Assembly (NCBI GenBank): GCA_000611775.1
Contig: KK106981.1
Span: forward strand, 4,714,927 to 4,778,926
Origin: Umbilicaria muhlenbergii
Lineage: Eukaryota; Ascomycota; Lecanoromycetes; Umbilicariales; Umbilicariaceae
Length of the DNA: 64,000 nucleotides
Direction: 5' to 3'
Shown here: in pieces, positions 26,770 to 62,599 of the stretch
Layout: each line of letters starts with the position of its first letter
Numbering within the stretch: position 1 is the first letter of the stretch
Notes under the pieces: generated by a model
The model's input: the letters and a program-made list of their open reading frames with translations, nothing else
Told to the model about the DNA's origin: nothing
Database searches by the model: none
Position numbers and translations under genes: made by a program

Positions 26770-27887
26770 TCAAAAATACTTTGAGGAAAATAAATATTAT
26801 GTTAATTCAAGAACCATGGATTGAGTCAAATAATAATACTATTTCACACTCAATATTTACTAGCATTATCCCAACGTCAGAACTCAGACTATGAGTTTTA
26901 ACATTTATTACAAAAGCAAACAAAGGAATAAAATGCACGCTTAGATCAGATATATCAAAGGATGCAAATTTACAAGCTTTGTTTATTTCTGCATCAAGTT
27001 TAGAAGAAATTCTACTGTTGAATGTATATAATAAAAGGTCTCTTCAGCCTGAATTAAATACATGAACAATGAAAAGAGCATTAAGTCAAATAAGTGCAAC
27101 AACTAGAACATTGGTTTGTGAAGACTTTAATGCACATCATGCATGATGAAATTCTACAATCACAGAGGCAAAAATGCAGAAAGTTTATTACAATGACTGC
27201 AAACAAATCACTGCAATTTAGTCAATATATCAGACGTCATGACATTCATCAGACATATTGTAAACAGACAATATTCATTAGTTTTAAATTTAACATTTGC
27301 AACAAATCAATTAATACCAGAAATAATTGATTGGCAAGTTAATGAAGAAGTGTATACTGATTCAGATCATGAGATTATTCAGTTTTTCATAATTATTAAA
27401 AATCTTACACTGATGAAAAGTTCTTTCAACGCGCTATTCAATATACAAAAAGCGGATTGAAAGAACTTTACAAAGGAATTACAGCAAAATGCAAAAGCAA
27501 TAAGTTTAAATCAATCATTAAAACAAATGACTGAAAACTTAAGAGACTTAATTGCACAAACTGCAGAAGATAATATTCCTAGATGAAAATCATGCAATAA
27601 ATTCAAAGTATGATAAACAGAAAACCTCATCAGGTTAAGAAAAAAAATGTCAACAGCAAGAAGACATTACAACAAGCATAATTAATCTGAAAGACAGTGA
27701 ATTAAATTCACAAAAAGCAGATCTGAGTACTTTCAAGTTATTAAAAATGCAAAACAAAAATCCTGAACAACATTTCTTACAGAAGCAAGTGGAAAAGATG
27801 TATTTTAAACATATAAATATACAAAGTCATGACTTATAGAGAAAATACCACCAATACAAGATCAAAATGATATATTATGTCAGGATT

Positions 27888-28900
27888 CATCAGCAATTTA
27901 GCAAGTTAGCTCTGAGCTAGTTTTTAGCACTTTGAGCGCTCTGAGCCTCTGATCTCATGTCTCAGCTAACAGCCGCTCTTAGCACCCTTTGAGCGCTTTG
28001 AGCTCAACCTTAAATCTTGAGCAGAACATCAAAATTTTGAAATAAAAAAACAGTTATTAAAACAATTGTTTAAACAAGTACACACACAGTGTTATAATAA
28101 CAGTAAAACTTATAATAAGTAAACTTTTGCTAAAATTCACTTTTCTGCAATAAAAAATCATGATTTGTTGAGTCTGAAAGCACTCTATAAGTGTTGAGTT
28201 CTGAATATTTAAAGAACTTCAAGATTTTCATCACTTAAAAATCTACACACTTTAATAACTTTTGCACCTCAACAGATACGAAGAAACTTTCAATGCACAA
28301 GTTATAAAGAACAGTATTCTCTATTAATGTTAAACTAAAAGTTTCTTCATAACTGCTGTTGTTCTTAAGTTATATTTAATTCAAGTTTTCAACAGCGAAA
28401 AATCTTTCAAAAAAAGTCACATACTTTAAATAACTATTGCGCTTTTATACTTATAATATAACTTTCAGTTTATAAGTTGTAGAAAATAAGCTGTTTAAGA
28501 GTTTTCTTATACAAACTTTCTTTTTATGTGTTGTTGTTGTTGAGTTATTCAAAAAGTCATTAAAAGTCTGTTTATTAATGTTGTAATTTTCATCACTGAA
28601 AGTTTGAAATCAATGCAACTTTTTAACAACAACAGTTATAAAAAAACTTGAAATTATAAAACTGTTTAATAGCTTCTTCTACAACTTATAAACTGAAAGT
28701 TATATCATAAGTATAAAAACGCAATAATTATTCAAAGTATGTGACTTTTTTTGAAAGATTTTTCACTATCAAAAACTTGAATTAAATATAACTTAACAAC
28801 AACAGCAATTATGAAGAAACTTTTAATTTAACATTAATAAAAAATACTATTCTTTATAACTTATGCATTGAAAGTTTCTTCATAAACAAGTTATATTTAC
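27888..28900. mobile_element. Foldback (long inverted-repeat) element, copy 1, right end lost
   Basis: Opens with CATCAGCAATTTAGCAAG like the two other copies and continues with GAGCGCTCTGAGC-type words. Its core is a large inverted repeat: sequence at about 28280-28520 (ACTTTCAATGCACAAGTTATAAAG onward) recurs as reverse complement at about 28640-28890. There is no coding capacity. The right terminal repeat seen in copies 2 and 3 is absent, and a piece of the LINE between its endonuclease and RT parts is missing at this junction, so insertion and a deletion both occurred here. Confidence 0.75.
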
Positions 28901-29332
28901 ATCCTCTGCAAAGAAAGCACCTGAATCAGATGATATTTCCTTTGCTATTATTCAAAAAGCATATCAGGCAATATCAGAATTAATGTTTACAATCTATAAA
29001 TAATTAATTCAAGCAGGCTTTCACCTGAAATGTTAATGTCAAGGCACAGGTGTTATTCTAAAAAAGCTGAAAAAGTCAGATTATTCAAAATTAAAAGCTT
29101 ACAGAATAATTACATTATTAAATTGTTTAAACAAAGTGGCAGAGAAAATCATAACAACCAAATTATTATATTTAAGTCAAGTCACAGACTTATTAGATCA
29201 AGATTAAACTGAAGAAAGAAAACAAAGATCAGCAATTAATGCAGTATTAACCTTAACACATGATATAGAATCAGCTCAAAACAAAGAAAATGTTCTATCA
29301 TGTTTATTACTAAACGTCAAGGGAGCTTTTGA

Positions 29333-30229
29333 GAGAGACAAAGAACTCACACCTTCACATGATGTCTCCTGTCAGTACTTACCAGATGTTGTGCACCTGA
29401 TAGAGAAGTCAAGATGAGTTTAAAAAACATTAATCAAACTCATTGAGTCTACAAACGTGACTTTGAAAGCTCATTACGCATGATCAGCCTTCATAAACAT
29501 TGACCTCAAACACGTGACTTCAGAAGCTCATTACGCATGGTCAGCCTTCACAAACATTGCCTCAAATGCAACTTTGAAAGCTCATTACGCATGGTCAGCC
29601 TTCATAAACATTGACCTCAAACACGTGACTTCAGAAGCTCATTACGCATGATTAATCTTCACAAACATTGACTCAAACATCAACTTCAGAAGCTCATTAC
29701 GCATGGTCAGTCTTCACACACATTGATCAAGCTCATTGAGCCTACAAACATGATTTCAGAAGCTCATTATGCATGAACAGCCTTCACACACATTGACCTC
29801 AAATGTCAACTTCAGAAGCTCATTACGCATGATCAGCCTTCACACACATTGACCTTAAACATGTGATTTCAGAAGCTCATTACGCCTGATCAGCCTTCAC
29901 ACACATTGCCTCAAATGTTGACTTCAGAAGCTCATTACACATGATCAGTCTTCACAAACATTAACTCAAACATGACTTTGAAAGCTCATTACACATGGTC
30001 AGCTTTCATAAACATTGAGAGAGAGTGAGGATGAAAATCAGGAAGAGAGTTGAGGAGATATTAAAAGAAATATTTAAAACTGTGCAATTCTGACACCAAT
30101 AGCAGCTGTCAAAAAAATTGACAAAATAAGTTGACTAGAGAGTTTTCTCTCACAAATGTATTGCTAAATTACTAGTCAGTGTCATAGTCTTAAACTGCAT
30201 ACACTTAATGAAGAAATAAAATAAATAAA
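29333..30229 (+). mobile_element. SINE-like retroposon: 57-bp tandem repeats plus LINE-type 3' tail
   Basis: The element splits the LINE reverse transcriptase and is flanked by the 14-bp target duplication AAGGGAGCTTTTGA (29319-29332 and 30228-30241). Its body is about ten repeats of a 54-58 bp unit. From about 30027 its 3' part is clearly related to the 3' untranslated end of the host LINE at 38340-38530: both contain GAGGATGAAAATCA, GACACCAATA, GTGTCATAGTCTTA and CTGCATACACTTAATGAAGA, then an A-rich tail. Homology begins just after the LINE coding end, so this is not a simple 5'-truncated LINE. It is best read as a non-autonomous element moved by LINE enzymes through a shared tail. No coding frame is evident. 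Confidence 0.75.
29432..30018 (+). repeat. 57-bp tandem repeat array
   Basis: The word AGCTCATTACGCATG (with variants) recurs about ten times between 29468 and 29985 at spacings of mostly 54-58 bases, each followed by ATCAGCCTTCACAAACATTGACC and a CAAACACGTGACTTCAGA-like part. Copies differ mainly by C/T and G/A changes, and many retain the CpG in TTACGCATG and CACGTG. One unit near 29725-29760 carries a variant insert (CTCATTGAGCCTACAAAC) also found at the array's left end. Confidence 0.85.
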
Positions 30230-30604
30230 GGGAGCTTTTGATTATGTATCACTACTGCAATTACTTTCAATTATAAAGAAATTGAAGTTATCAGTACAAA
30301 TACAATCATGAACAAAATTCTTTCTAGAAAATAGAAAATCAGGATTAGCCTTTAATGATGAAAGACAAAAAATGCAAAATATCAAGACAGGAATTTCACA
30401 AGAATCATTAATATCCTCAATACTGTTTTTGATATATATAAGGTATTTATTCCTGAAAATCAAGGCTAAATTCATAGATATGAAAAAACTCAGCTATATA
30501 AATGATGTGACACTATATATTACTGAAAAATCAGCTGCAGAAAATTGCTTAAAATTATAATCAACAGCTGAAACAGCTTTCTTATGAGCAGAAACAAACA
30601 CAGT

Positions 30605-30811
30605 TGTTACAATTAATTATTTCACTTCATAAGCAGGCTTAAAACTGTTGCAAGAGGTGAGTTATTTGAATTTAAAAAAGTACAAAGAAGGAAGCAGTCT
30701 TGTGAGTGTGATTATGATATAAATGTCAAGGTGTCAAGACACACTAATCTTAATTTAGTTTAACATCAGGTAATTCAATATTCATCAGTGTTAATTGATT
30801 ATATTATAACA
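30605..30811 (-). repeat. Family A LTR (3' LTR of copy 1)
   Basis: 207 bp beginning TGTTACA and ending TAACA on the plus strand. Its match is at 36402-36608, and the same LTR bounds the second copy at 51755 and 57766. Confidence 0.88.
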
Positions 30812-33800
30812 TCACCTCTCTTCAGACAGAAGGCCTGTCCTCAGGTTTTACAAGTTTATGTTTTTCTACACAATCTTGTCTTCTTTTTTTTATTTACTGT
30901 TGTATTGTTCTCCTTCACAGGGTTGAGCTCCTTTTCAGTTTTGTAAGCTTTCAATTAAATATTCAGTCTCATTGAGGGCTCTGTCTTCTCTGAGTAAGTA
31001 TCATGATACTGTTTAAGCTTGTGCAGTGATCTGATGAAGCCATTAGCATCATATCATTCAGAGTTGAGGTTATAACCCTCTCAATTAACCTGATATTGTA
31101 GTACCTCATTATGAACTCAGCTTGTTAAAATCTTGTTAACAGTATACTTTGATTTCCTGTTAACTTCTGTTGATGACTTCAGGTCTTGAATTTAATTTGA
31201 TAAAAAATCATCAACAGCTTTCCTTAAGTGATCTGCATGAAAGACATTGTTCATCTTCATGTGCTTAAGTAAGTTCAAGACATAAGAGTGACCTTTCATA
31301 AATAAAATTCAGTATGAGCTCATGACCTGATGATTTAACTTTAAGCTTAACTGCTCAGTGGTTCACCCTTTGCATGTGATGTAGACTTAATCATCAACTT
31401 TAAAGTTAAACTTTCTTCAATGCTTGTTGACCTGAGCTGTCATTTTATTTTAAGCTCATTTCAGGTTTTCCTTTGCTCATTTAATCATGTCATGAGTCTT
31501 AATAATGAAGGTTTGAGCTTCTTCTCTCATCAGTTGCTCTCTTACAGTGTTTAAGGATTGCATTCACTCTTTTCAATGAAAGTGTAGATGAGGAGTTTAT
31601 CTCAGCTTCAACTCATAAAATGACATGCCTGTAGATTCATGAGTGAGAACCACTTAAGTGAAATTCATTGTCAACAAAAGGTCTGATCAGTTATTCTGAA
31701 AGTGATTCACAAATGAGTGTAAGTGCTGATTGATGTACTGATTCATTACCTCAGTGTTGTCATTCATCTGTGAATGATAAGTGATCAACAGCTTTTGCTT
31801 GACTCCTGTTAACTTGCAAAGCTCATCAGTGAATGTTGATACAAATTGAGGATCATGATCTGAGATAGCAGTCTCAGATGACCTGTAAATCCTTCAGATG
31901 TGCATTCAGTGACATGTTTAACAGTTCAAAACAAAAACTGAACAATCATTTGACAGACTTGATCAGTAGTACTGAACTGATAATAACTTTGTCATCTTGA
32001 TCTTGCCTGAGTGTGCTGTCACTGATGTTGAATGAGCTTCATTAATTAAATGAGTCTGCAAAGTGTTCATGTTCAGCATCATGAGCTTTTCAAATCATGT
32101 AAGAAGGCTGTCTTAAAGCTTTCAGCCTCATTCCTCTTTCCTTGTTATCTGATGATACTGATTTAATGATTCATGAGAGTGATTGACCTGCAGAATTTAA
32201 TTCATCAGCTGATAAGAGTTTTTCATCTGTTTAATCTCATTCAGAGAACCACCCGCCTGTTCAATCTCATTTGAAGAATTACTTTCAATATTTATTAAAC
32301 TCTCATCTATTGCAGCTATTACGCAACTAGGATTCAGAAATAATTATATTCATGCAGTGATGTTCTTTTCTTTCTGAGTAATCAACTCATCATGTTTTCT
32401 TATCAGAGTATTAACAATGACGTTGACTGTTCCTGAGCAGTAAGTAATCTTGAAGTTGTAGTTTATCACAATATCAGCTCATTTAGCTTGCCGTGAGTTG
32501 AGTAAACACTTGATGATGAAGTATTTCAGTGCTCAGTGATCTGTAATTGTGACAAATGAGACTGCTTATAAGCTTAATAGCATGTCATGTCATTCTTAAA
32601 GAGCTTTAACAACTGTTAGCATCTCTTTGTCATGAATCTCATATCACATTTCCTCAGATAACATTGTCTTCAAGAAGTAAATTACAGATTTTCACTTATC
32701 ATCTTTCTGTTGCTGAGTAAACATTTTTATAACAACTCTGCTGCTGACATCTGTCTTCATTTAAGTCTTCAAATAAGGTGAATAATGAGCTCAGACAACA
32801 TCTGACAGCATAAGTTCTTTTGTCTTCTTAAAAGCTTGAATTTTCAGCTCTTCTAAGGGGTGTCAAGCTCCTTTTGCAGTCAGCTTTGTCAACAGGTGTA
32901 TGACTCAACCTCATTTTTTTAATGAGTAATAATAAAAGTTGCAGAATCTCAGGAAGAACTGAATTTCCTTGATTAATTTTAATAACAATTAATTCTTAAT
33001 GATGAAAACTTTGTCTGAGTTCATTGCAATACCTTCAGTGCTGATGATGAAGCTCAAAAACTTTGTAGATTGAATGCTGAACTCATTTTTCTTTATGTTC
33101 ACTTGTAGGCCTGCTTTCTTAAGGTGTTGAAGCACTTTTTTAAACTTGAGTGTCATGTTTCAACAGATCCTCTGAGTAGATCAAAATGTTATTCACATAA
33201 ATTATGCAGAAATCATTCAGGTAATCAAATAAAATGTTGTTGATATATTTTTGAAAAAAGGTGAGTTCATTGCAAAGACTGAAAAATAAAATCTTGTATT
33301 TGTAGAATCTATATCTTATCTGAAAGATGATTAAATCCTTAACAGACTTTTTCATCTGTATTTGATAAAATGTCTGCTTAACATTTAGCTTGATAAAAAC
33401 CTTTGCTTTAATCAGTCAGGTCAGTGTCTCCTCAATTAAAGATAAAAAGTATTTATTCTTTTTTGTGATGATGTTGAGTTTCTGATAATCAACACAGAAA
33501 CATCATCCCTTCTCTGACTTCTTCACAAACAGAACTGATGATGCATAAAGAGTATCATTAAAGATTATGAAACTCTTCTTCAGATGATTCTTTAAATAAG
33601 TTTTAATTAACTGTAACTGCTTTAATGACATGCTGTACAAGAAGCTTGAGATCAGGTTATTTTCATCTTTCAAGATGATATCATGATTTATTTTTTCCTT
33701 ATGTAATGACAGCTGATCTGATGTTGTCTTGCTGAAAACCTTCACAAACTTTTAATACTGATGAGATAATTTTTTCTTTATTCTTTAATTCAGCTTCACT

Positions 33801-36401
33801 TCATTCTGCAACAGCAGACAGGGATTTCTTCAGTTTTTTATTAAATGATCAACCTCATGAATATTAATGACATCAATAATCATCTCTTCTTTTTTAACAT
33901 TGTGTAAGAAGTTTTTTGCTTTCAGAAGTGTGATATTCACTTCTTGATAAAGAGGAGGTTCATGATTCTTTAATTTCTTTACATTTAATGAACTTTAACC
34001 TTCATTCATTGAATTACTTGTGTGATTCATTGAATCTTCTTTTTCATTCAGTTGTTTTTTTATCTCATTGATGTTGATCTGCTGCTGAGCTCTTCATGTC
34101 TTTGATTGTGCTCACAATTGTAGGATTGACTTTTTGAAAAGTTTAATAAGCTTTTCCTTTCATTCATTTAACCTCATCAGATGTTCAGTATTCTCAGAAT
34201 TAACTTCATTAAGTACTCTTGTGATTTCATCTCTTTCTGCTCTCTTTAAGATCTGAGTTGATGTTACTGCCTCATGCAAGTGATTCTGATGATCAACATC
34301 TGCTTAATGTTCTGATTTAACTTCTGATAGTTGTAATTCTCACCTTGATATCATTAAGTTCTTGCTTACTTGATATTGAGCCTCCTCAGGCCAAATCAGC
34401 TTTCAATTGAAGCAATTAATTAAAATTTAAGTCTTTTCAAATCATTTTCTCTTGATCAGAACATCATGCCTGCTGATATCATAAAACAAGAAGTGAGTAA
34501 AGATTCATTTTTCATTAATCACTAAATTTGCTGTAAATGCTCTGAAGATTATCTCAGCATTTTGATTATTATAATTTATTAAGAGAACTGACCTCTGTGC
34601 TGTCTTGATGTATAATTACAGATGCTTTTTCACAAATTTAAAGTGCTTCTTGTGAATAAAAGTCTTTTTAATAACACTGATGTTTAGCAGAGCTGCTACT
34701 CTCATGATTAAGTTATTAACTGCAAGTTGATAATCTCAGGTTAATGATGATTTTTTTAAAATGTTTAACATCTTCATCTTGCTTATCTTTGCTCCTTTTA
34801 TTGACTTTAGGGTGAAGACTTCATCTAGAGTAACTTATTTTCTGAATTTAAATGATCAGACTTTACAGCTTTTGTCTCAGCTTTCTTTAACTTGTTAGAA
34901 CAATCCCTCACTAAATGCTCTTTCTTATTGCAGATGTAACATGTTATGTTAATTAACATTAACTTGATTGCTTCTCATGTGATGATGATGATTATGATGA
35001 TTGTCTTCTTTTTAAATTTAAAAGTTAATTGTTTTTTCTGCAGCTTCTGTTGATCTTTTCATTTCTTAATTCTCTCATCAGCTTTAACAAGATCCCTCAT
35101 GAACTGTTGAGCCTTTTTATAATAAGCATCAAATGACATGTCCTTGTCAGCAACATAGATTTTCATTTAAACTCAAAGTGAATTATATAACTTGTCATGA
35201 ATTTTCTCTTTTCATTGATCTGTTGACATCTTCACTGAATTCACTAACTGTAAGAATTCTGACTGAAATACATTAAAGTTCTCAAGATAAGACATCTTGA
35301 ACTTCTTCAGTTGCTTTCATGCCTTCAAGTGATGATCTGAATCCTCAAAGATGTTCTCAAGATATTAAATAATCTCTTTAACATAAATCTCTCTTCCTGA
35401 CTGAGTCTTCAATCATGAATAAAGGTGTTCAGTGACCTTGCTGTCAACTCATGTCTTGATGTAAATCACTCTGACATGTTCAGCTTCATCTAGGTTTGAT
35501 TGATCAAATCAATCATCATTGATTCATAACTTGCTCTTTATCTGATCATTTCATACCTGAAAAGTGAGCTTAAGATCATCATTCAGAATTAATGAGTTTA
35601 AAAACTTCACTGAATGCTTCTTCATTGCATCATTTATGTTTAATTTAAGTGTGCCTTCTCTTGATCATTCTGCTTCAAGATTATTAAGTCATCAAGTTAA
35701 CTTCAACACATTCTGTTTCAGTTCTTGTTTCTTAATTGTTAACTTTTTTATTTAAAAGTTTTTCTGATTATTCTGTTCTTTTAGATTTTGTATCTGTGCT
35801 TTGTACAAATCCCTCTGATTTAGTGTCTTCAACACTAGATGACAGGTGTTCTCTGAATCATGTGTTACTCATTATTGTAAGTTTTCAGAGGTCACCTCAT
35901 TTTAAGAGTTCATCTTTATGTTTATTATTATTTTTAATCTCTCATGATCATCTGACTGTCCTTCAGTCAAGAATAATTTTTTAAATTAAGAAGAGATTCC
36001 TCTCTTCTGATGTGATTTAATCATGATTTCTTCAGTGCTTCAAACACTTACTCTTAATGCTGAGATTATTCAGTTCAGAACCTTGCTTTTTCAACTGCCA
36101 TTACTAAATTGTCTGTGCTTATAAATAAATCTTTTCATTTACTGACTTCTCACAGTTACCTGTCATCATGACAGAGTACTTCTTAATCATTCATTGCTTA
36201 CTCCTCACAGGGCTTGAGAATTGATTGTTGATAATTAATTAATGAATTTAAGATGTTCTAAGAACCTTCTGATCACTCAGTAAACTGTGAGTTGAGATGT
36301 TTGATGATGTTGAGGAAATTTTTTTTCATCAATACACATGTTTATCTCAGCTGATATTCTGCCACCTTCAGAGATCAAAAAGAGTGTAAGTACTTTTTTA
36401 A

Positions 36402-36608
36402 TATTACAGTTAATTATTTCACTTCATAAACAAGCTTAAAACTGTTGCAAGAGGTGAGTTATTTAAATTTAAAAAAGTACAAAGAAGAAAGCAGTCTTGT
36501 GAGTGTAATCATGACATAAATGTCAGAGTGTCAAGACATATTAATCTCAATCTAGTTTAACATCAGGTAATTCAATATCCGTCAGTGTCAGTTGATCATG
36601 TCATAATA
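36402..36608 (-). repeat. Family A LTR (5' LTR of copy 1)
   Basis: Same 207-bp length as the partner at 30605-30811, followed on the right by the target duplication ACAGT and the continuing LINE. Confidence 0.88.
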
Positions 36609-38536
36609 ACAGTACAGTTTGATGACAGTAAATTTAAATTAATTCACTTTGAAAAGTTAAAAAAACCTGCGGAAAACAGTATTACATTATCAAATGACAT
36701 GATGATAAAACCAGTCAAAGAAGTCAAGTGATTAGGAGTTTGATTAAACAGAAAATTGAACTTTAAAACACATGTTCAAAAAAAAGTATCCACAGTGATC
36801 AGAGTAATGCACTTAATCAACAGATTAACAAATTCAGAATGAGGTCTTTCAGTTAAAAATGCAAAACAACTTTATCAAGCATACATTACATCAATTAGTG
36901 ACTACGGGTCAGAAATTTGATGAAAAAACCAGAAAGACTACTTAAAGCAATTAGAAAAATTGCAAAACTCAGCATTATGCAAGATCTTAAAAGCTTTTAG
37001 AACTTCCTCAGGAGCTGCAATGAAAATTGAAGTAAATATTCAGCTGATACAAGTCAAATTAAACAAAAAATACAGGAAATATGCATTAAAGATTATAACC
37101 TTATCAGAAAATCATTGTATCAAGCAGAGAATACTCACTTCATACTCATCAGAGTCACAAATAAGTCAAGACATACTTATAAACTTTAAATTTCTAGATT
37201 GAAATCAAAATACATCAGGGAAAAAACACCCTACACAGTTAATTAAAATACTAAACAGTATATCTACATTAATATCATCAAGACAAGTGGAAAAGCCTAT
37301 TACAGCTAAAAAAAAATGACTACAAAGTAATACACAGATTGCAGATATTCAAGTTTCAGCAGAAACAAAAGAAATCACAATTAAAAAACACTTTGCTCAA
37401 GTAAAGCAATTGATTGCATGCAAAACATCAGTCTTTTACATTGATGAGTCAAAAATCAGTGTAAAGACAACACAAAGCACAAAAGACCACATAGAAGCTG
37501 AAATTTACTATATAAAAAACAATTATATAAGTACAAAAAGCTACTTTCTAGGTCAGTACATGAAAGTACTAGATGCAGAGCTTTATGCTATAATGCAGGT
37601 TACAAAACAAGCAATACAAAGACAGTTTTTAAGGAAAAACATCTGAATATTTACAGATAGTCAAACTGCAATATAAAAATTACAAAAATCTGCAAATACA
37701 GAAGTTTTACAACAAATTCAGTTAAATCTGCAGAAATTATGGCAAAGTCAAAAGTTAATTCATATACACTGAATTCCTAGCCACAGTCAAATACCAGGGA
37801 ATGAATTAGCAGATAAAGCAGTCAAACAAGAAGCTTTAAATGCAGGTAATGCAGTTATTAATGCAGACTCAAGGCATATTTCTTTATCTTATATGAAAAA
37901 AGATATTGAGGAAATTGCCAAAGAGGAATGATTAATAAAATAGCAAAATGCAAATCAAGGTCAATAATACAAGACATATGCTACAAGACCTGACCTAATT
38001 ATAAAGTTAAAAGAATTGTACAAATGTGAAAGGTTAACCTTTATAACATTTACACAATTAAAATTAAGACACAGCTATTTTAAATCATATCTTTACAAAT
38101 TATCTACATATGAAAACAATCAATGTTTTCAGTGTAAGATAAAACAGTCATCAGAGCATTTACTGTTAAATTGCAGGCAGTATAAACAAGAGCAGCAGGA
38201 GTTAAAACAGGAAATACAAAAAGTAAAATTTACACAATTAACATTACAATCACTACTTTGTACAAAGGAAGAGATTAAAAATACTTTAGTATTTTTAAAA
38301 CACACAAAAATAGCTACATGAAAGTGACTTTTAAGGGGGGTTGAGGATGAAAATCAAGAAGTAGAATAAGAAGATATTAAAAGACATATTTAAAAATGTG
38401 TAATTTTGACACCAATAACAGTCACAAAAGAAATTGATAAAACAAGTTGACTTGAGGTAATAAATACCTCACATATATAAACTACACAGTGTCATAGTCT
38501 TAGACTGCATACACTTAATGAAGAAATAAAAAATCA

Positions 38537-38701
38537 AAAGAGATATATTATGAGGTTAAAACATGTTTTATTTTCTTTTTTAACAATAATTCTTTACCTA
38601 TTAACAATATCATACTATTGTGAATCATCAACTATAAGCTTAAGTCATTATTGTCACATAACTTCATAATTTCTTAATTAAGATATTACCTCATGATAAT
38701 A
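38537..38701 (+). repeat. Inverted fragment of a family B gypsy LTR
   Basis: Read on the minus strand this segment matches about 160 bp of the family B LTR (compare 40870-41030 and 47735-47890): GAGGTAATATCTTAA, TATGTGACAATAATGACTTAAG and TAATATGATATTG-like words. It is opposite in orientation to the nearby full element, lacks both LTR ends, and is wedged between the LINE tail and foldback copy 2. Confidence 0.75.
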
Positions 38702-40239
38702 CATCAGCAATTTAGCAAGTTAACTCTGAGTTAATTTTTAACACTTTGAGCGCTCTGAGCTTCTGATCTCATGTCTCAGCTAACAGCCACTCTTAGCATC
38801 CTCTGAGTGCTTTGAGCTCAACCTTAAATCTTGAGCAGAACATCAAAATTTTGTGATAAAAAAACAATTATTAAAACAATTGTTTAAACAAGTACACACA
38901 CAGTGTTATAATAACAGTAAAACTTATAATAAGTAAACTTTTGCTAAAATTCACTTTTCTGCAATAAAAAATCATGATTTGTTGAGTCTGAAAGCACTGT
39001 ATAAGTGTTGAGTTCTGAATATTTAAAGAACTTCAAGATTTTCATCACTTAAAAATTTACACACTTTAATAACTTTTGCAACTCAACAGATATGAAGAAA
39101 CTTTCAATGCATAAGTTATAAAAAACAGTATTCTCTATTAATGTTAAACTAAAAGTTTCTTCATAACTGCTGCTGTTGTTAAGTTATATTTAATTCAAGT
39201 CTTCAATAGCGAAAAATCTTTCAAAAAAAGTCACATACTTTGAATAACTATTGCGCTTTTATACTTATAATATAACTTTCAGGTTATAAGTTGTAGAGAA
39301 TAAGCTGTTTAAGAGTTTTCTGATACAAAGTTTCTTTTTATGTGTTGTTGTTGTTGAGTTATTCAAAAAGGCATTAAAAGTAAATCATGATTTGTTGAGT
39401 CTGAAAGCACTGTATAAGTGTTGAGTTCTGAATATTCAGTTTAAAGAACTTCAAGATTTTCATCACTTAAAAATTTACACACTTTAATAACTTTTGCACC
39501 TCAACAGATATGAAGAAACTTTTAATGCATAAGTTATAAAGAACAGTATTCTCTATTAATGTTAAATTAAAAGTTTCTTTATAACTGCTGTTGTTGTTAA
39601 GTTATATTTAATTCAAGTTTTCAATAGTGAAAAATCTTTTAAAAAAAGTCACATACTTTGAATAACTATTGCGCTTTTATACTTATGATATAACTTTTAG
39701 TTTATAAGTTGTAGAGAATAAGCTGTTTAAGAGTTTTCTTATACAAAGTTTCTTTTTATGTGTTGTTGTTGTTGAGTTATTCAAAAAGTCATTAAAAGTC
39801 AGTTTCTTAATGTTGTGATTTTCATCACTGAAAGTTTGAAATCATTGTAACTTTTTAACAACAACAGTTATAAGAAAACTTTAAGTTATAAAACTGTTTA
39901 ATAGTTTCTTCTCTACAACTTATAAACTGAAAGTTATATCATCAGTATAAAAGCGCAATAGTTATTCAATATGCTAATATATTTATAATTAGTTAAAAGT
40001 TTTTTAATTCATAACTATTGCAAATTAAAACTTATGAAGAAATCTTTAGTTTGTAAAGTGTACAGAATAAAGAGATCTAAAACTTTTCAATAAAAAGTTT
40101 TTTATTATTCATGAAGGTATAATAGTTATTTAAAGTGTAAGATTTGTATGAGCTGATTTACTGCTCAGAGAGTGCTCTGAGCACATAAAGTACTATTAAC
40201 TAAAACCTTATTTTTGAGCGGGCTGCCAAGTTGCAGATG
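38702..40239. mobile_element. Foldback element, copy 2, with internal 413-bp tandem duplication
   Basis: Imperfect terminal inverted repeats are visible: the left end reads CATCAGCAATTTAGCAAG and the right end, reversed, reads CATCTGCAACTTGGCAG. The internal arms (about 39660-39760 against 39900-39960, and others) are reverse complements of each other. A block of about 413 bp (38969-39381) is followed directly by a second copy (39382-39799), making this copy 1.5 kb against 1.0 kb for the others. CpG persists in TTGCGC and AAGCGCAATA. No coding frame. The target duplication is unclear. Confidence 0.78.
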
Positions 40240-51754: not shown

Positions 51755-51961
51755 TGTTACAGTTAGCTATTTCACTTTATAAGCAGGCTTAAAACTGTTG
51801 CAAGAGGTGAATTATTTGAACTTAAAAAAATACAAAGAAGAAAGCAGTCTTGTGAGTGCAGTCATGACATTAATATCAGAGTGTCAAGACACACTAGTCT
51901 CAATTTAATTTAATATCAGATAGTTCAATATTCATCAGTGTCAGTTGATCATGTCATAACA
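51755..51961 (-). repeat. Family A LTR (3' LTR of copy 2)
   Basis: 207 bp, TGTTACAG to CATAACA on the plus strand. It is followed by the C-run of the purine tract (read on the other strand), which marks the 3' side of the element. Confidence 0.88.
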
Positions 51962-54900
51962 TCACCCCCCTTCAGACAGAAGGACTGTTCTCAGTTTTCA
52001 TCTTAAACTTTTCATCTTGACTGCCTCTTGAATCCTCTATTGATCATCATGTTGTTTTTATTCATTGAGTTCAGCTCTTCACCTGACTTGTAAGCATTTA
52101 ATTAAACTTGTAACCTCCTCAGTGGCCTCACCTCATTCAGATAAGTGTCATGATAATCTTTTACCTTTTAAGATGACCTTATAAAGTCAACAGCATCATA
52201 TCATTCTGAGTTTAAATCATATCCCTCTCAAGTCACTTGATATTGCAGGATGTTGTTGCAGATTCAGCTTGTTAAAATTTTTTCACTGCATACTCAAGCT
52301 GATCATTAACTTCAGTCAACAGCTTCAGGTCCTGAATTTAATTCAACATTAAATCATTCATCACTTTCCTTAAATGATCAGCATGAAAGATGTTGTTCAT
52401 CTTCATGTATTCAAGTAACTTCAGAACATAGAAGTGATCTTTCATGCTGCAGATTCAGTAAAGACCTGCTGCTTAATGATTTAACTTTAAGTTAAGTCTT
52501 TCAGTGGTTCAATTCTTTCAAGTAACATAAACTCAGTCTTTAATGAAGAAGTTCAGTTTTCTTCAATGCTTATTTATTTGATCTGTCATTTTATTTTAAG
52601 CCTGTTTCAGGTTTTCCTTTGCTCATTTAACTGCATCATGAGTTTTAATAATGAAGGTCTGAGCTTCTTCTCTTGTCAGTTGCTCCCTTATGATGTTCAA
52701 GGATTATGTTCACCCTTTTTAATGAAAGTGTAGATGAGGGGTTTGTCTCAACTTTAACTTATAAAGTGACATGCCTGTGAACTCATGAGTGAGAACCGCT
52801 TGAGTGAAATTCATTATTAATAAAAGGTCTGATCAGTTGTTCTGAAAGTGATTCATGAAGGGGTGAAGCTGTTGATTGATGTATTAATTCAGTACCTCAG
52901 TGCTTTCATCTGTCTGTAAGTGATATGCTGTTGAAAGCTTTTGCTTTACCCTCACAAGCTTGCAGAGTTCATTCATGAATGTTGAGATGAACTGAGGCTC
53001 TTAATCTGATGTTGCTGTCTCAGGTGTCCTGTAGATTCTTCAGATGTACTCATAATATAATTATGCAACTTAAGCTGCTGTAACTGTCTTCTGACATGAC
53101 AGTGAGAAGGCCCTTTTTTTAAAGTGATCAACAACAACAAATATATTATTAAAGCCTTTCTTGTCCTGTGAGAAGAATTTAAAGTTGAATGAAATATGCT
53201 GTCAGCACTTATCTTCAATTAATAAAGAGTAAAGTAGGCCTGAGGTCTTGTCTTGAGGTACATGCATTCAACAGCATGTTCAACAGTTTAAAATAAAAAT
53301 TAAACAGTCATTTAACAGACCTGATCAGTAATACTGAATTAACAACAGCTTTGCCATTTTAATCTTGCTTGAGTGCATCATCACTGATGTTGAATGAGCT
53401 TCATTAATCAAATGAGTCTGCAAAGTGTCAACATTCAGCATCATGAGCTTCTTAAATCATGTAAGAAGGTTATTTTGAAGCTTTCAACCTCATTTCTTCT
53501 TTCTTGTCATCTGATGATACTGGTTCAGTGATTCATGAGAGTGATTGACTTGCAGAATTCAATTCATCAGCTGATAAGAATTCTCTGCCTGTTCAGTCTC
53601 ATTCAGTGAATCACTTTTGACATTCATTGAACCCTCACCTATTGTGATTATTATGCAATTAAGATTCAGAAACAGCTGTGTTCATGCAGTGATGTTCTTT
53701 TCTTTTTAAGTGATCAACTCATCATGTTTTCTTGTCAAGGCATCAACAATGATGTTGACTGTTTCTGAGCAGTAGGTAATCTTGAAGTTGTAGTTTATCA
53801 CAATATCAGCTCATTTAGCTTGTCATGAATTAAACAATCACTTGATGATAAAGTACTCTAGAGCATGATGATCTGTAATTGTAATAAAAGAGGCTGCTTA
53901 TAAATTTAATAACATGTCACATCATTCTTGAAAAGCTTTAACAACTGTTAACATCTCTCTGTCATGAATCTCATATCACATTTCCTCAGGTGACATTGTC
54001 TTTGAGAAGTAAATTACAAGTTTTCACTTGTCATCTTTTTATTGCTGAGTGAGTACTTCTGTAACAACTTCACTGCTGATGTCTGTCTTCATTTGAGTTT
54101 TCAAATAAAGTGAATAATGAGCTTAAATAACATCTGATAGCATCAGCTCTTTTGTCTTCTCAAAAGCTTAAATTTTCAGCTCTTCTAAGAGGTGTCAGGC
54201 CTCTTTTGTGATCAGCTTTGTCAACAGATGTACAACTTAACCTCATTTTTTTAATGAGCAACAATAAAAGTTGCAGAATCTCAGAAAGAACTGAATTTTC
54301 TTAATTAATTTCAATAACAATCAGTTTTTGATGACAGAAACTTTGTCTGAGTTCATTATAATATCTTCAATGCTGATGATGAAGCTCAGAAACTTGATAA
54401 ATTGAATATTAAACTCATTTTTCTTTATGTCTGCTTATAAGTCTGCTTTCTTAAGGTGTTGAAGTACCTTTTTAACTTGAGTGTCATGTTTCAACAGATC
54501 CTCTGAGTAAATTAAAATATTATTCACATAAGCTGTGCAGAAATCATTCAGGTAATTAAATAAAATGTTGTTGATATACCTCTGAAAGGAGGTGAGTTCA
54601 TTGTAAAAGCTGAAAGATAAAACCTTGTATTTGTAAGATCTGTACCTCATCTGAAAGGTGATTAAATTCTTGACAGACTTTTTCATCTGTATTCAGTAAA
54701 ACACCTGCTTAACATTTAGTTTAATAAAAACCTTTGCTTTAATCAGTCATGTTAAGGTCTTTTTAATTAAAGGCAAGAGGTATTTATTCTTCTTAATGAT
54801 TGCATTAAGTTTTTAATAATTAATACAAAAATGTCACCTCTCTTCAGGTTTCTTTGCAAAGAGAATTGATGACATGTAAAAAGCATCATTAAAGATTATG

Positions 54901-57765
54901 AAACTCTTTTTCAAGTGATCTTCAAGATAAGCCTTGATTAACTTTAACTGCTTCAGTGACATGCTGTATAAGAGACTTAAGGTCAGGTTGTTCTCATCTT
55001 TTAAGATGATATCATGATTCACTTTTTTCTTATGTAGAGGCAGCTGATCTGATGCTGCCTTGCTGAAAACCTTTACAAACTCTTAATACTGATGAGGTAA
55101 TTTTTCTTTTATTCTTTAATTTAGCTCTGTTTTATTCTGTAGCAGCAGACAGAGGTTCCTTTGATTTTTTATTAAATGATTAACCTCATGAATGTTAATG
55201 ATGTTAATAATCATCTCTTTTCTTTTAACATTGTGTAGAAAGTTTCTTGCTTTCAGAAGTATAATATTCACTCCTTGATAAAGAGGAGGTTTATGATTTT
55301 TTAATTTTTTTACATTTAATGAACTTTGACCTTCATTCATTAAATTACTCATGTGATTCATTAAACCTTTCTTTTTGTTCAGTTATTTTTTCATCTCATT
55401 GATGTTGATCTGCTGCTGAGCTCTTCATGTCTTTGATTGTGCTCATAACTGCAGGATTAACTTTTTAAGCAGTTTAATGAATCTTTTCTTTCACTCATTT
55501 AACCTTGTTGAATGTTCAGTATTCTCAGGGTCAGCTTTGTTAAACATTATTATGATTTCATTCCTTTCTGCTCTCCTTAAGATCTGAGTTGATGTTGCTG
55601 CCTCATGCAGATTATCACATTATTCAGTATCTGCTTAATGTTCTGATTTGACTTCTGATAGCTGTAATTCTCATCTTGATATCATTAAGTTCTTGCTTGC
55701 TTGATATTGAGCCTCCTCAGATCAAATCAGCTTTTAATTAAAGTAATTAATCAATACTTTAGTCTTCTTGAATCATTTTCTCTCAATCAAAACATCATGC
55801 CTGCTGATGTCACAAAATAAGAAGTGAGTAGGAATTTGTCTTCTGTCAATCACTAAATTTGCTGTAAATATTTTAAAGATCATCTCAACATTTCAATTAT
55901 TATATTCTGTTAAAAAAACTGATCTCTGTGCTGTCCTGATGTATAACTGCAGGTGCTTTTTCACAAATTTAAAGTGCTTCTTGTGAATGAAAGTCTTCTC
56001 AGCAACATCAGTGTCTAGCAGAGCTGTTACTCTTATGATTAAGTCATTAACTGCAAGTTGACAATCTCAGATTAATGATGACTTTTTTAAAATGTTTAAT
56101 ATTTTCATCTTGCTTATCTTTGCTCCTTCTGTTGACTTTAAGGTGAAGACTTCACTTAAAGTAGCCTGTTTTCTGAATCTGAATGATCAGAGTTTACAGC
56201 CTTTGCCTCAGCTTTCTTTAACTTATTAAAATAATTCCTCATCAGGTGTCCTTTCTTATTGCAGATGTAACAAGTTACATCAATTAATATTAATCTGATT
56301 GCTTCTCATGTAACAGCAGTGATTGTGATGATTATCTTTTTTTTAAATTTAAAAGTTGACTGCTTTCTCTGCAACTTTTATTAATTCTTTTATTCCTTGA
56401 TTCTTTCATCTGCTTTAACAAGATCTCTCATGAACTGTTGAGCCTTCTTATAATAAGTGTTAAATGACATGTCCTCATCAGTGACATAAATTTTCATTTG
56501 AACTTGAAGTGAGTTATATAACTTGTCATGAATTTCCTCTTTTCACTGATCTGTTGACATCTTCACTGAGTTCATCAGTTGTAGAAACTCTGACTGAAAC
56601 ATGTTAAAATTCTTAAGATAAGACATCTTGAACTTCTTCAGCTGCTTTCATGTCTTCAAGTGATGATCTGAATCCTTGAAGATGTTCTTCAAGTACTGAA
56701 TAATCTCTTTAACATAAATCTCTCTTCCTGACTGAGTCTTCAGTCATGAATAAAGGTGTTCAGCAGCCTTGCTGTTAATTCACATCTTGATGTAAATCAC
56801 TCTGACATGTTCAGCTTCATCTTGATCTGACTGATTGAATCAATCATCATTGATTAATAACTTACTCTTCATCTGATCATCTCATACTCAGAACATGAGC
56901 TTAAGATCATCATTCAAAATCAGTGAATTTGAAAACTTCACTGAACACTTCTTTGTTGTGTCACTCATGTTTAATTTAAGTGTGCCTTCTCTTGGCTGCT
57001 CTGCTTCAGAGTTGTTAAGTTATCAGGTTAACTTCAACACATTCTGTTTCAATTCTTATTTCTCAGTTGTTAACTTCTTTATTTGAGAGTTTTTCTGATT
57101 ATTCTGTTCTTTTAGATTTTGTATCTGTGCCTTGTATGAATCTCTCTGATTTAGCACTTTCAACATTAAATGACAGATGTTCTCTGAATCATGTGCTGCT
57201 CATCATTATAAGTTTTTAAGGGTCATCTCATCTTAAGAGTTCATCTTCATGATATTTATTATTTCTGATCTCTCATGATCATCTGACTGTCCTTCAGTCA
57301 AGGATAATTTTTCAGATTAAGAAGAGATCTCTTTCTCTTGATGTGATTTAATCATGATTTCTTCAGTGCTTCAAACACTTACTTTTAATGCTGAGATTAT
57401 TCAGTTCAGAACCTTGCTCTTTCAACTGCTTTTACTGCAGTTGTCTGTGCTTACAAATAAATCTTCAAGAGTGTTTACATGTTGCAGGACTTTTTATTTA
57501 TTATGATTACTTCTCACAATTACCTGTCATCATGACAGAGTACTTCTTAATTATTCATTGTTTACTTCTCACAGGACTTGAGAATTGATTGTTGATAATT
57601 AATTAATGAATTTAAAATGTTCTAGGAACCTTCTGATCACTCAGTAGATTATGAATTGAGATGTTTAATGATGTTGAGGAAGAATTTTCTCATCAACACA
57701 TGTGTTTATCTCAGCTGGTATTCTGTCATCTTCAGAGGTCAAAAAGAGTGTAGGTACTTTTTTAA

Positions 57766-57972
57766 TGTTACAGTTAATTATTTTACTTCATAAGCAGGCT
57801 TAAAACTGTTGCAAGAGGTGAATTATTTAAATTTAAAAAAATACAAAGAAGGAAGCAGTCTTGTGAGTGCAGTCATGACATAAATGTCAAAGTGTTAAGA
57901 CACATTAATCTCAATCTAGTTTAACATCAGGTAGTTCAATATCCATCAGTGTCAATTGATCATGTCATAACA
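57766..57972 (-). repeat. Family A LTR (5' LTR of copy 2)
   Basis: 207-bp partner of 51755-51961, followed directly by the target duplication CTCAG. Confidence 0.88.
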
Positions 57973-58680: not shown

Positions 58681-59742
58681 AAAAAAAGAAATTAAAATAA
58701 TGTCAAGATTATGCAGATTATGAATTAGTACATGTGTTTTAACAGTTGATATTTAACTACAGAGAAGAGTTCTAATCTAAGAAGTAAAAGGAAAAAAGAG
58801 CATGAAGATTAAAACTTTTATATACATGTTAAGTTCATTAATTTAATCACTGTTAACCTGTTCAGTTTAATCAGTTCAGTACATCATTCAGATCATTCAA
58901 TTTAATTTAATGTTCAAGTGTAAACCTGACAAGATTAACCTGTTAAATATAATTAAATTATTTTATTTTTAAAAGATAATTTGTTCTTTTTTTATAATTA
59001 TTAATATAATTTCTTATATGAAAGAGTTTTTTGTTAAACTTTTCTTTATTTATTCTTCTCATTTATTATTTTTAATTATGAATATGACTATTAAAACTTT
59101 TTAATTATATTATAATATATTATTATTATTTCTGAGTATGACTTTAATTTTCTCTTTATCTTGAAAGTAATCAGCTTATTTATTTTATGTATTAATTTTA
59201 TTAATTTTATTTCCTTTTTGATAAATTTTTTAAAGTTGTATGAGAATAATTTCTCTGATTATTATACTTATCTACAATTTACAATCTTAATTATAATAAC
59301 ATAAAAGAGGTCTTTATAATTAGTATATATTTTAATTATATATTTAATCTCTTTTAAATATACTTTTCACTGCTTAAATGCTTTTATAATTATTAATAAG
59401 TTTTTATTATATATCTTATAATTAAGCTTTAATTTTTATTTATTTTAACTGTTATTTTCCTATTTATATCAAATATTTACAATATTAGTTTTAATATAAA
59501 TATTTTCTTTAATTACTGAAATACATCTTTATTATAATAAGCTTAGTCAGTAGGATCATAAAATGAAGTTATAATATTTTAAGATGATTAAACTGATTAA
59601 GTGTTAATCACTTTAATCACTTTAATCAAGTTGATTGAGCATTAATTATTTCAATTATTATAATTGAGTTGATTAAATATTAATTACTTTGATCATAAAA
59701 AGCAAAGAAGTTTGTAAATTATTATATAAATAAACTCAACTT
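58681..59742. other. AT-rich sequence without recognisable gene
   Basis: Over 1 kb of very AT-rich DNA with long TTTAATTATAAT-like runs. At 59590-59700 the words TTAATCACTTTAATCA and ATTAATTATTTCAATT repeat loosely. No terminal repeat of gypsy C could be found here. Confidence 0.5.
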
Positions 59743-60763
59743 CATCAGCAATTTAGCAAGTTAACTCTGAGTTAATTTTTAACACTTTGAGCACTCTGAG
59801 CTTCTGATCTCATGTCTCAGCTAACAGCTGCTCTTAGCACCCTCTGAGCACTTTGAGCTCAACCTTAAATCTTGAGCAGAACATCAAAATTTTGTGATAA
59901 AAAAACAGTTATTAAAACAATTGTTTAAACAAGTACACACACAGTGTTATAATAACAGTAAAACTTATAATAAGTAAACTTTTGCTAAAATTCACTTTTC
60001 TGCAATAAAAAATCATGATTTGTTGAGTCTGAAAGCACTCTATAAGTGTTGAGTTCTGAATATTTAAAGAACTTCAAGATTTTCATCACTTAAAAATTTA
60101 CACACTTTAATAACTTTTGCAACTCAACAGATATGAAGAAACTTTCAATGCATAAATTATAAAAAACAGTATTATCTATTAATGTTAAATTAAAAGTTTC
60201 TTCATAACTGCTATTGTTGTTAAGTTATATTTAATTCAAGTTTTCAATAGCGAAAAATCTTTCAAAAAAAGTCACATACTTTGAATAACTATTGCGCTTT
60301 TATACTTATAATATAACTTTCAGGTTATAAGTTGTAGAGAATAAGCTGTTTAAGAGTTTTCTGATACAAAGTTTCTTTTTATGTGTTGTTGGTGTTGAGT
60401 TATTCAAAAAGTCATTAAAAGTCGGTTTATTAATGTTGTGATTTTCATCACTGAAAGTTATATCATAAGTATAAAAGCGCAATAGTTATTCAATATACTA
60501 ATATATTTATAATTAGTTAAAAGGTTTTTAATTCATAACTATTGCAAATTAAAACTTATAAAGAAATCTTTAGTCTATAAAGTGTACAGAATAAAGAGAT
60601 TTAAAACTTTTCAATAAAAAGTTTCTTATTATTCATGAAGGTATAATAGTTATTTAAAGTGTAAGATTTGTATGAGCTCATTTACTGCTCAGAGAGTGCT
60701 CTGAGCGCATAAAGTACTATTAACTAAAATCTTATTTTTGAGTGAGCTGCCAAATTGTGGATG
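59743..60763. mobile_element. Foldback element, copy 3
   Basis: Bounded by CATCAGCAATTTAGCAAG on the left and, reversed, CATCCACAATTTGGCAG on the right. It aligns with copy 2 along its length but has a single copy of the internal block and a deletion in the second inverted arm (near 60450). CpG persists at TATTGCGC, AAAGCGCAATA and GAGCGCATAAAG. No coding frame. Confidence 0.78.
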
Positions 60764-62599
60764 TTCTGCATAATCAAAAACTTTATACTTAACTCAATAT
60801 AATAATTTTATATTATTAATAACAACTTCAGTTTTAATGATATTAAGTACTTAATAAAGCTTTAAATTTGTTTAAAAACAACTTTATATGATTAAAAATT
60901 AATAATCAACTGTTACACTTTAAGTATTAAAATTAACTTATCACTTACTTTATATTAAATTAATAATTATCTTACAATAAAGCTCATTTACTATCTCAGC
61001 AGAGAAGCAACTTATAATTATCTTTAATATAATTATAATTAAATTACTTAAAATTGTTTTACCTGATTTTTTTTAAAAAATAATGAATTAAGTTTTAAGT
61101 TTATTTCCTTTAAGTTAACTTGTATATTAAGTTCAACAACACTTAATTTATAATAAAATCAGAAAAAATATTATATATTATTATATATCTTTATGATAAA
61201 GCCTTTGCCTAAATAAAATCACACTTAAAGTATTACTTGAATAATGATTTATTCAAGCAAAAGGATAAAATTAAAAGAATATTTAAATTCTCAATTATTT
61301 TCAAGAAAAAAAATATGCTATAATTATAATAAAATTAAGCATTATATTAAAAACTGTCACAAATTAAAGCAGATGTAATTATTCTCAGAGAAGTATATTA
61401 AAATAATATTAAAGTATCTTCAAATCACACAGTCAGTTAATAAATTAAAAAAACATCACACAATATTATATCATAAACTACTTATTATAATGATGAATGC
61501 TTTACTCACTTAAGTGAAAAGCAAAGCTTAGGATAATATCTTTACACATTTAAAAAAAATCTTTTATATAATATAAACAACATCAGCTGAGAAAGATAAT
61601 AAAAAAGATTTTAAATAAAATAAAAACTTCATTAAAAATGAAATGAAGGAACTAATTAATATTAAAAAATTTATGACAACAGCATCAACAAAGTTCATTA
61701 AAAAGTGAAATAAAAAAATTAATCAAGTTATAAATATCTTGATCACTGTTAATTTAAATATTTTCAACTGAGTTTATTAAGTAATACAAGAAATTTTGCA
61801 ATGAATAATGAATATTTTCAAATATTAGCAAGGGCTGAATTTTTTGAAAGTCATTATTAATAAAATGATTAAACAAGTGAAAAAGTGAGCAATAAAGTAT
61901 AATATTAAATTTATAAAAATTTATAAAAAGATACTTTATACTCTTCATTAATAAAAAAACTTTATGATATTCTCAGATAATCTCACAAGAATTAAAAATA
62001 TAATTTAATATTAAATTAAAAACATATTAAAAGAAGTTTATTATAAGAATATTTTTAAAAACACTCATTGTTATGATTATATCATGATTTTATTAATATA
62101 TTATTAATATATTAACTTTCTTAGTCACCTGTTCAGGCTTAACTTAGTTTAATTCATATATAACAGGCTTTAACATTACTAATAAGAATTAATCTTCTCA
62201 CATCAAATAAATGAAACATGTTCAACAATTTGATAACAACACTTATCTCAAGCATCATAAAATACCTTGAAATAATCAGTTCTTTAAACAAATCATGATG
62301 TCACTGTTGATTAATTTAAAGTTATTCAACTTTAAGTTTTAACTCCTCTTCATTATCAGCTGCTTAGTCATCATTGATTAGCTGATTACTTTTCATTAAG
62401 CAGTTTATCATCAGTTAACTGTTTACCTCTCATTGACTGCTGTTTATATAATAAATCTTTCAAGTCATTGAGCTTCCTGTTGAATCAAATGATTTATATC
62501 AGCAATTAAATGATTTGTATTAATATTATAATTAAACTGACTTCTTCTTCTTCTTTCTTAAGTCAGCAAGCTTTTTTAACTTTAATAAATAATTTAATA
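60764..62599. other. Very AT-rich decayed sequence, with a possible gag-knuckle trace
   Basis: Mostly TATTAAT/AAATTA sequence without a usable frame. At about 61312-61360 the plus strand shows a weak trace of a retroviral-type zinc knuckle (spacing like CX2CX4HX4C), which suggests another LTR element's gag, but the surroundings are too eroded to define its ends. Confidence 0.35.

Follow-up and report, generated by a model that had tools for sequence, protein, structure and literature searches.

A probable LINE-mobilised retroposon family of Umbilicaria muhlenbergii combining an HDV-like ribozyme sequence, a tandem-repeat array and a LINE-type tail

Several retroposons with a ribozyme at the 5' end have been described. 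First, in the R2/R1 hybrid SIDEs of Drosophila, the R2 ribozyme is joined to the 3' end of R1, the insertions show 14-bp duplications, and mobilisation is thought to occur in trans, according to the available text of PMC3414825. Second, the trypanosomatid elements NARTc, RIME and SIDER are short, non-autonomous, and carry the 5' HDV-like ribozyme Pr77 (PMC4035085, available sections). Third, 230 HDV variants have been reported from 26 fungal species, and in these P2 and P3 are separated by one additional nucleotide, which is usually C; the accessible part of this report states that two variants were shown to cleave and that the gene associations are widely variable, and the word "retrotransposon" occurs 0 times in its main text (PMC5640933). 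In addition, short, dispersed retroposons with target duplications are known from fungi in the form of the tRNA- and 5S-derived SINEs of Aspergillus fumigatus (PMC5063351, available sections). The R2/R1 SIDEs are the nearest precedent for the element described in the present study, as both combine a 5' HDV-like ribozyme sequence with the 3' end of a different LINE. However, as presented in the available text of PMC3414825, the SIDEs occupy one 28S rDNA site and take their ribozyme from the known R2, whereas the insertions described herein are dispersed and have a repeat array separating the two modules. Likewise, Pr77 is common to the autonomous LINE and doubles as a promoter, whereas the partner LINE of the present element is without the head, and a 57- or 70-bp array is described for the present element only, as far as the available sections of PMC4035085 extend. 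Among the results listed in searches of the open-access literature, there was no fungal retroposon with a ribozyme head, repeats and a LINE-type tail.

The stretch analysed, herein called the window, comprises 64,000 nucleotides of the U. muhlenbergii genome, and the parts of the unit and of its host LINE given below are on its forward strand. The whole unit, a composite retroposon, extends from 29333 to 30229 between two copies of a 14-bp target-site duplication, AAGGGAGCTTTTGA, the left copy (29319-29332) inside the reverse transcriptase (RT) frame of a LINE and the right copy at 30228-30241; this sequence occurs exactly twice in the window. When the unit and one duplicate are removed, joining the flanks across the single remaining copy, an open RT frame is restored (NVLSCLLLNVKGAFDYVSLLQLLSII), so that the duplication proposed in the initial annotation as the boundary of the unit was borne out. 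The unit begins with an HDV-like ribozyme region (29333-29425), which was aligned to the heads of a younger type of copy, type B, that match the Rfam family RF02682 from the identical first base. This region is followed by a tandem-repeat head (29426-30018) with ten repeat cores of about 57 bp, counted by eye within about 29455-30018 (unit length about 54-57 bp), and by a LINE-derived tail of type A (30019-30229), which has an A-rich end, overlaps the right duplication with its last bases, and is homologous to 38342-38531. The tail at 30026-30221 shares 80.5% identity with the 3' end of the interrupted LINE at 38342-38531; the alignment scored 241, and the highest score among 300 shuffles was 73. 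The first description of about ten 57-bp repeats fused to a LINE-like tail of about 200 bp thus holds, except that the homology starts about 25 bp before the stop codon (38367) rather than just past the coding end.

The host LINE, which we assigned by eye to a Tad-like clade, comprises an endonuclease part (26782-27885; PF14529), an RT part to the left (28885-29332) and to the right (30228-30604; PF00078) of the insertion, and a segment encoding RNase H, the C-terminus and the 3' UTR (36607-38531; PF00075), these domains being scored in a translation search with stop codons altered where needed. The copy looks 5'-truncated at 26782, and most of the other LINE copies align from this position (query position 133); judging from its frequent stop codons, it also looks dead. 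Two further sequences split the LINE, an LTR-type element at 30605-36606 and, at about 27886-28884, an AT-rich insert that is partly palindromic; the 3' end of the LINE was therefore placed at 38531. The LTR-type element is one of two copies in the window (30605-36606 and 51755-57972, with ends of about 205 bp), the first lying inside the host LINE. The AT-rich, partly palindromic insert is a MITE-like repeat that occurs in the host LINE and elsewhere in the window (27886-28884, 38699-39969 and 59741-60768), the copies being 94-98% identical in the longest alignments.

The mobility of the unit and its structure in modules are well supported by searches of the same genome (34.79 Mb, 7 contigs). 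With the unit as the query, at least 51 matches were obtained, and the family comprises about 50 loci, corresponding to 51 clusters after merging the best-scoring candidates of the unit, head and young-tail searches; this count comes from hand-picked matches, some clusters may be fragments or parts of one element, 7 matches of the unit search representing LINE tails or small fragments were omitted, and matches of the head search were added only where no cluster covered them. Head, repeats and tail occur together at many loci. Both ends could be located in 22 copies. In 14 of these, a perfect duplication of 10 bp or more (observed lengths 11-14 bp) was present no further than 2 bp from the element start, compared with 1 of 462 swapped pairs, in which a left flank was set against the right flank of another copy. 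Duplications of 12-14 bp were present in all seven type-B insertions tested; the eight copies without a clear duplication are all of type A, and at least one flank was below 35% GC in all seven of these measured. The test set omits L003, where head and tail come from different copies, six loci with one end not located, cut or reading N (L010+, L015, L022, L027, L067 and L072), the tail-only loci, and L070 and L071, as L069-L071 have the same flanks and were counted as one insertion event. Thus, independent copies with the same head-tail structure and private duplications, of the kind that the initial annotation had expected of a mobile family, were found, and its reservation that repeats and tail might never co-occur elsewhere is contradicted.

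The ends of the copies are consistent with target-primed reverse transcription, as the 3' ends are A-rich, with a run of about 30 A in L062, and L020 is a 5'-truncated copy with a 13-bp duplication. The young copies have a sharp 5' end. No protein-coding frame was observed in six type-B copies examined, the longest ATG frame being 104 amino acids. The earlier idea of a SINE-like parasite using LINE enzymes was therefore correct with respect to the mobile family, the private duplications and the LINE-type tail, and has to be modified with respect to the head, which is not only a tandem repeat. A classical SINE with a tRNA, 7SL or 5S head was rejected: ARAGORN revealed no tRNA in L026, the Rfam scans of the element gave no tRNA, 5S or SRP match, and A and B boxes were inspected by eye. 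In this respect the element differs from the A. fumigatus SINEs, for which tRNA and 5S heads are described in the available sections of PMC5063351.

With two 70-bp units as the query, 77 matches were obtained, all in 23 loci, and in each of these loci the array adjoins an element head or tail; this 140-bp query may miss more diverged repeats, and one repeat-only fragment (C2:743975-744379) is among the matches of the search with the whole unit. Free satellite DNA was consequently rejected for this query, and the repeats do not look like the satellite that they were taken for at first. The same results bear on the view that a 5'-truncated LINE was inserted into or beside a satellite array, which would account for a head joined to a LINE-like tail. 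This view is extremely improbable, as numerous loci show the same head-tail structure flanked on both sides by private duplications, and the repeat query matched element loci only. Each of the arrays of L062, L063 and L064 contains seven 70-bp units in a row without any difference among them, and the arrays are 95.7-97.1% identical to each other, so that the array variants of these three young copies are private to each insertion. From this pattern, a single unit probably gave rise to each array at about the moment of insertion, through growth during copying or shortly afterwards in the chromosome. Retroposons with an expandable repeat block include the SVA elements of hominids and mouse L1 with its tandem 5' monomers; the repeat block of the present element is alike and its sequence is unrelated, and we know of no HDV ribozyme in SVA or in the mouse L1 monomers. 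Rfam matches to mir-193 in the array (26.4 of 55 bits) were taken as chance pairing of neighbouring repeat units.

Two different tails were observed on one head. The homology of the type A tail, as in the window, extends from the 3' end of the LINE back to a point about 25 bp upstream of the LINE stop codon. The type B tail of the young copies has its own body of about 320 bp and is LINE-like in the last 60 nt or so only; it was found at 12 places by tail search, and ten loci bear a type-B head (L026, L062-L064, L066 and L068-L072), that of L072 being without a tail. The last 60 nt or so of the B tail aligned to the LINE 3' end with a score of 43, which was reached by none of 5000 dinucleotide shuffles, whereas the entire B tail was borderline (score 53 against a shuffled maximum of 54). 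No LINE matching the B end more closely was found in the assembly, and the 11 places obtained in the pattern search agree with those of the B tail. The GC content of the flanks was mostly higher at type-B loci than at 14 measured type-A loci, with flanks of 65 bp compared for B and 1300 bp for A, and the flanks of L069-L071 (type B) are AT-rich. When type-A heads were compared with L026, 321 of 369 substitution cells were C-to-T or G-to-A. In 17 type-A heads, C-to-T change on either strand affected 56% of CpC and 49% of CpG, and was weakest at CpA (29%), whereas repeat-induced point mutation (RIP) is usually biased towards CpA. In the AT-rich block at 38532-64000 of the window, CpG is nearly absent (26 in 25.5 kb) and CpA is common.

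The first 90 nt or so of the element resemble an HDV-like self-cleaving ribozyme beginning at base 1, and the head therefore is more than the tandem repeat proposed initially. In the permissive mode of Rfam, the L026 head gave a full-length match to RF02682 (HDV-F-prausnitzii; 22.6 bits, E 0.15) and a match to CPEB3 (15.6 bits, E 0.7). Of six further type-B loci, five matched RF02682 (22.6-23.4 bits, E 0.52-0.81), and three matched CPEB3 in the same stretch (15.7-21.8 bits, E 3.5 to 0.034). Each of the six RF02682 matches places model position 1 at base 1 of the element, a coincidence that is telling because the boundary was set independently by the duplications. All of the scores are under the gathering thresholds, the best being 23.4 of 44 bits for RF02682 and 21.8 of 35 bits for CPEB3. 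In a genome-wide search for RF02682 at E<=10, in which 61 of 2294 candidates from the 34.8-Mb genome were scored, the single match reported was an element head (23.4 bits, E 0.56), and sub-threshold matches at the same cut-off appeared in 8 of 14 control genomes, so that the position of the match carries the weight rather than its score.

The predicted fold of the type-B heads is a nested double pseudoknot with a 7-bp P1, P2, a 3-bp P3, P4 and the J4/2 cytosine. As folded by hand, P1 (GGGAGAC/GUCUCCU) has G-U as its cleavage-site pair, P2 is UGAACUCA/UGAGUUCA followed by a single extra C before P3, P3 is ACC/GGU with the loop UUCACGU, P4 is CCUACCAG/CUGGUAGG, and J4/2 is GAAGCUAAGA. The motifs CACACCU, ACGUGGUG and GCUAAGAUG are identical letter for letter to the RF02682 consensus, and cleavage in young heads, e.g. 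L062 and L063, is predicted directly before GGGAGACA. In an R2 ribozyme, changing the J4/2 cytosine was shown to abolish cleavage, as stated in the available part of PMC3774820. The AGUA and GAA strands at the base of P4 could form a loop E as in the fungal HDV variants, judging by the usual loop E consensus. Those variants share the HDV fold with the extra nucleotide between P2 and P3, and differ in their usual C-G pair at the cleavage site, as far as described in the available part of PMC5640933. A pseudoknot descriptor, composed after inspection of the sequences, placed the fold at exactly base 1 in 6 of 10 type-B heads and in 0 of 17 type-A heads. In shuffled sequence, the descriptor made 98 calls over 29.1 Mb and 29 over 13.0 Mb; the 19 calls in 617,274 bases of real sequence comprised 7 in element heads (6 loci) and 12 elsewhere, some of the latter being the same place in overlapping loci or antisense repeats. 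A viral scan with the ribozyme pattern, with 8 free bases as the spacing, found none.

When the named fold was applied to 23 heads, 88.8% of cells were paired, compared with 36-49% for slid versions, and 12 pairs are changed on both sides (shuffled mean 7.8; reached by 0 of 500). Shuffled rows still pair 86.8% of cells, and the outermost P2 pair is broken in 17 of 23 rows. This covariation is modest evidence because of the bias of the type-A substitutions noted above, and the double changes may merely reflect RIP-like mutation. In minimum-energy folding, by a program unable to form the pseudoknot, the heads were no better than shuffles (z -0.68 and -0.66). In the window copy, the strands occupy 29333-29339/29364-29370 (P1), 29342-29349/29415-29422 (P2), 29351-29353/29361-29363 (P3), 29378-29385/29397-29404 (P4) and 29405-29414 (J4/2). 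This copy is degraded, with an A-C mismatch in P1 and GUCAAG instead of GCUAAG in J4/2, and is probably inactive on account of these changes.

These results also allow for a SINE-like retroposon whose head would be a promoter or a structured 5' region that has no ribozyme activity, the likeness to HDV being coincidental or vestigial. The Rfam scores under gathering and the control-genome matches reported above would fit such a head, as would the ordinary folding energy and the failure of type-A heads to keep the fold. Nevertheless, base 1 of the element is exactly where both the RF02682 matches and the descriptor begin, the CPEB3 matches lie in this region as well, three motifs reproduce the RF02682 consensus exactly, and the extra C is a feature of the fungal HDV variants (PMC5640933, available sections). 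On balance, a head of this kind appears unlikely.

The 5' end of the partner LINE bears on a further alternative. Of 43 matches to the LINE 5' region, 35 begin at query base 152 or 153, and the sequence upstream differs among three readable copies (two in L061, one beside L025); the common start and the differing upstream sequence locate the 5' end of the LINE there. The head and repeats of the element are absent from this inferred 5' end, where no ribozyme was detected in L061 by the family model, Rfam or the descriptor. Thus, the unit is neither a truncated nor an internally deleted copy of the partner LINE, and the suspicion that it might be a simple truncated LINE carrying the repeats does not hold. 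An internally deleted LINE (SIDE), in which the head and repeats would represent the 5' UTR of some LINE that has become linked to the 3' end of that LINE, has precedents in the R2 SIDEs and NARTc/RIME (PMC3414825 and PMC4035085, available sections), and the A tail is indeed LINE-derived. However, in addition to the 5' end just described, the head adjoins LINE sequence in only two of 30 LINE loci, the window locus, which is the insertion itself, and L035, where the junction is internal and damaged, and another LINE, L073, is without the head. This origin therefore seems quite improbable; in a variant of it, the head may have been donated by a different, lost LINE.

Several observations concern the LINE copies themselves. 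At L035/L065 (C2:5820900-5822300), damaged head repeats are joined to an internal LINE position upstream of the endonuclease, with damage at both ends, and this junction may be a template-switch product or nested damage. In the LINE L073 (C3:3995400-4001800), stretches of 273, 544 and 554 codons are open, and 28S rRNA-like sequence, as judged by eye, follows; L073 is possibly an rDNA-inserted element. It was rejected as a helper, since its 3' end is unlike the B tail by eye and no head was found in it. In the examined stretches of 30 LINE copies, the longest open frames were 82-517 amino acids and no intact helper was seen. In the first 500 bp of the LINE-oriented loci, a sequence ending in TGACAGCCTA abuts the LINE at varying positions in 5 of 12 loci inspected (L042, L046, L049, L052 and L055), and resembles the terminus of an element with terminal inverted repeats that was inserted into the LINE.

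Herein, we propose that the element is a non-autonomous, LINE-mobilised retroposon with an HDV-like ribozyme, tandem repeats and a LINE-type tail, a reading that we consider probable, with catalysis and mobilisation as predictions; it would work in the manner of the R2/R1 SIDEs of Drosophila. In this model, a self-cleaving HDV-like ribozyme forms the 5' module, repeats of 57 or 70 bp in an array that can expand form the second, and a 3' end resembling that of a Tad-like LINE forms the third. The element would be transcribed within a longer RNA, and the ribozyme would cut just before the first base, so that the 5' end of the released RNA is always the same. This RNA would then be recognised by the LINE protein through its LINE-like 3' end and copied into a nick, and such target-primed copying would produce the 11-14 bp duplications, the A-rich 3' end and some 5'-truncated copies. 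In the subfamily of the window, the head would have been fused to the last 190 bp or so of the LINE, probably via template switching.

The composite retroposon offers a concrete biological role for the fungal HDV ribozyme variants, given the variable gene associations reported in PMC5640933, and extends the design of a ribozyme plus a LINE tail from a single fly rDNA site to dispersed insertions in a fungal genome. One head with two tails provides a natural series for the study of tail exchange, and the private, identical arrays of young copies make the growth of the array relative to insertion directly testable. Tentatively, and with less confidence than in the element itself, we hypothesize that fungal HDV variants in general might be the 5'-processing heads of LINE-mobilised, tail-exchanging composite retroposons, in which about one round of amplification per insertion would regenerate the repeat block from a single unit. 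If this is true, each new copy would carry its own homogeneous array.
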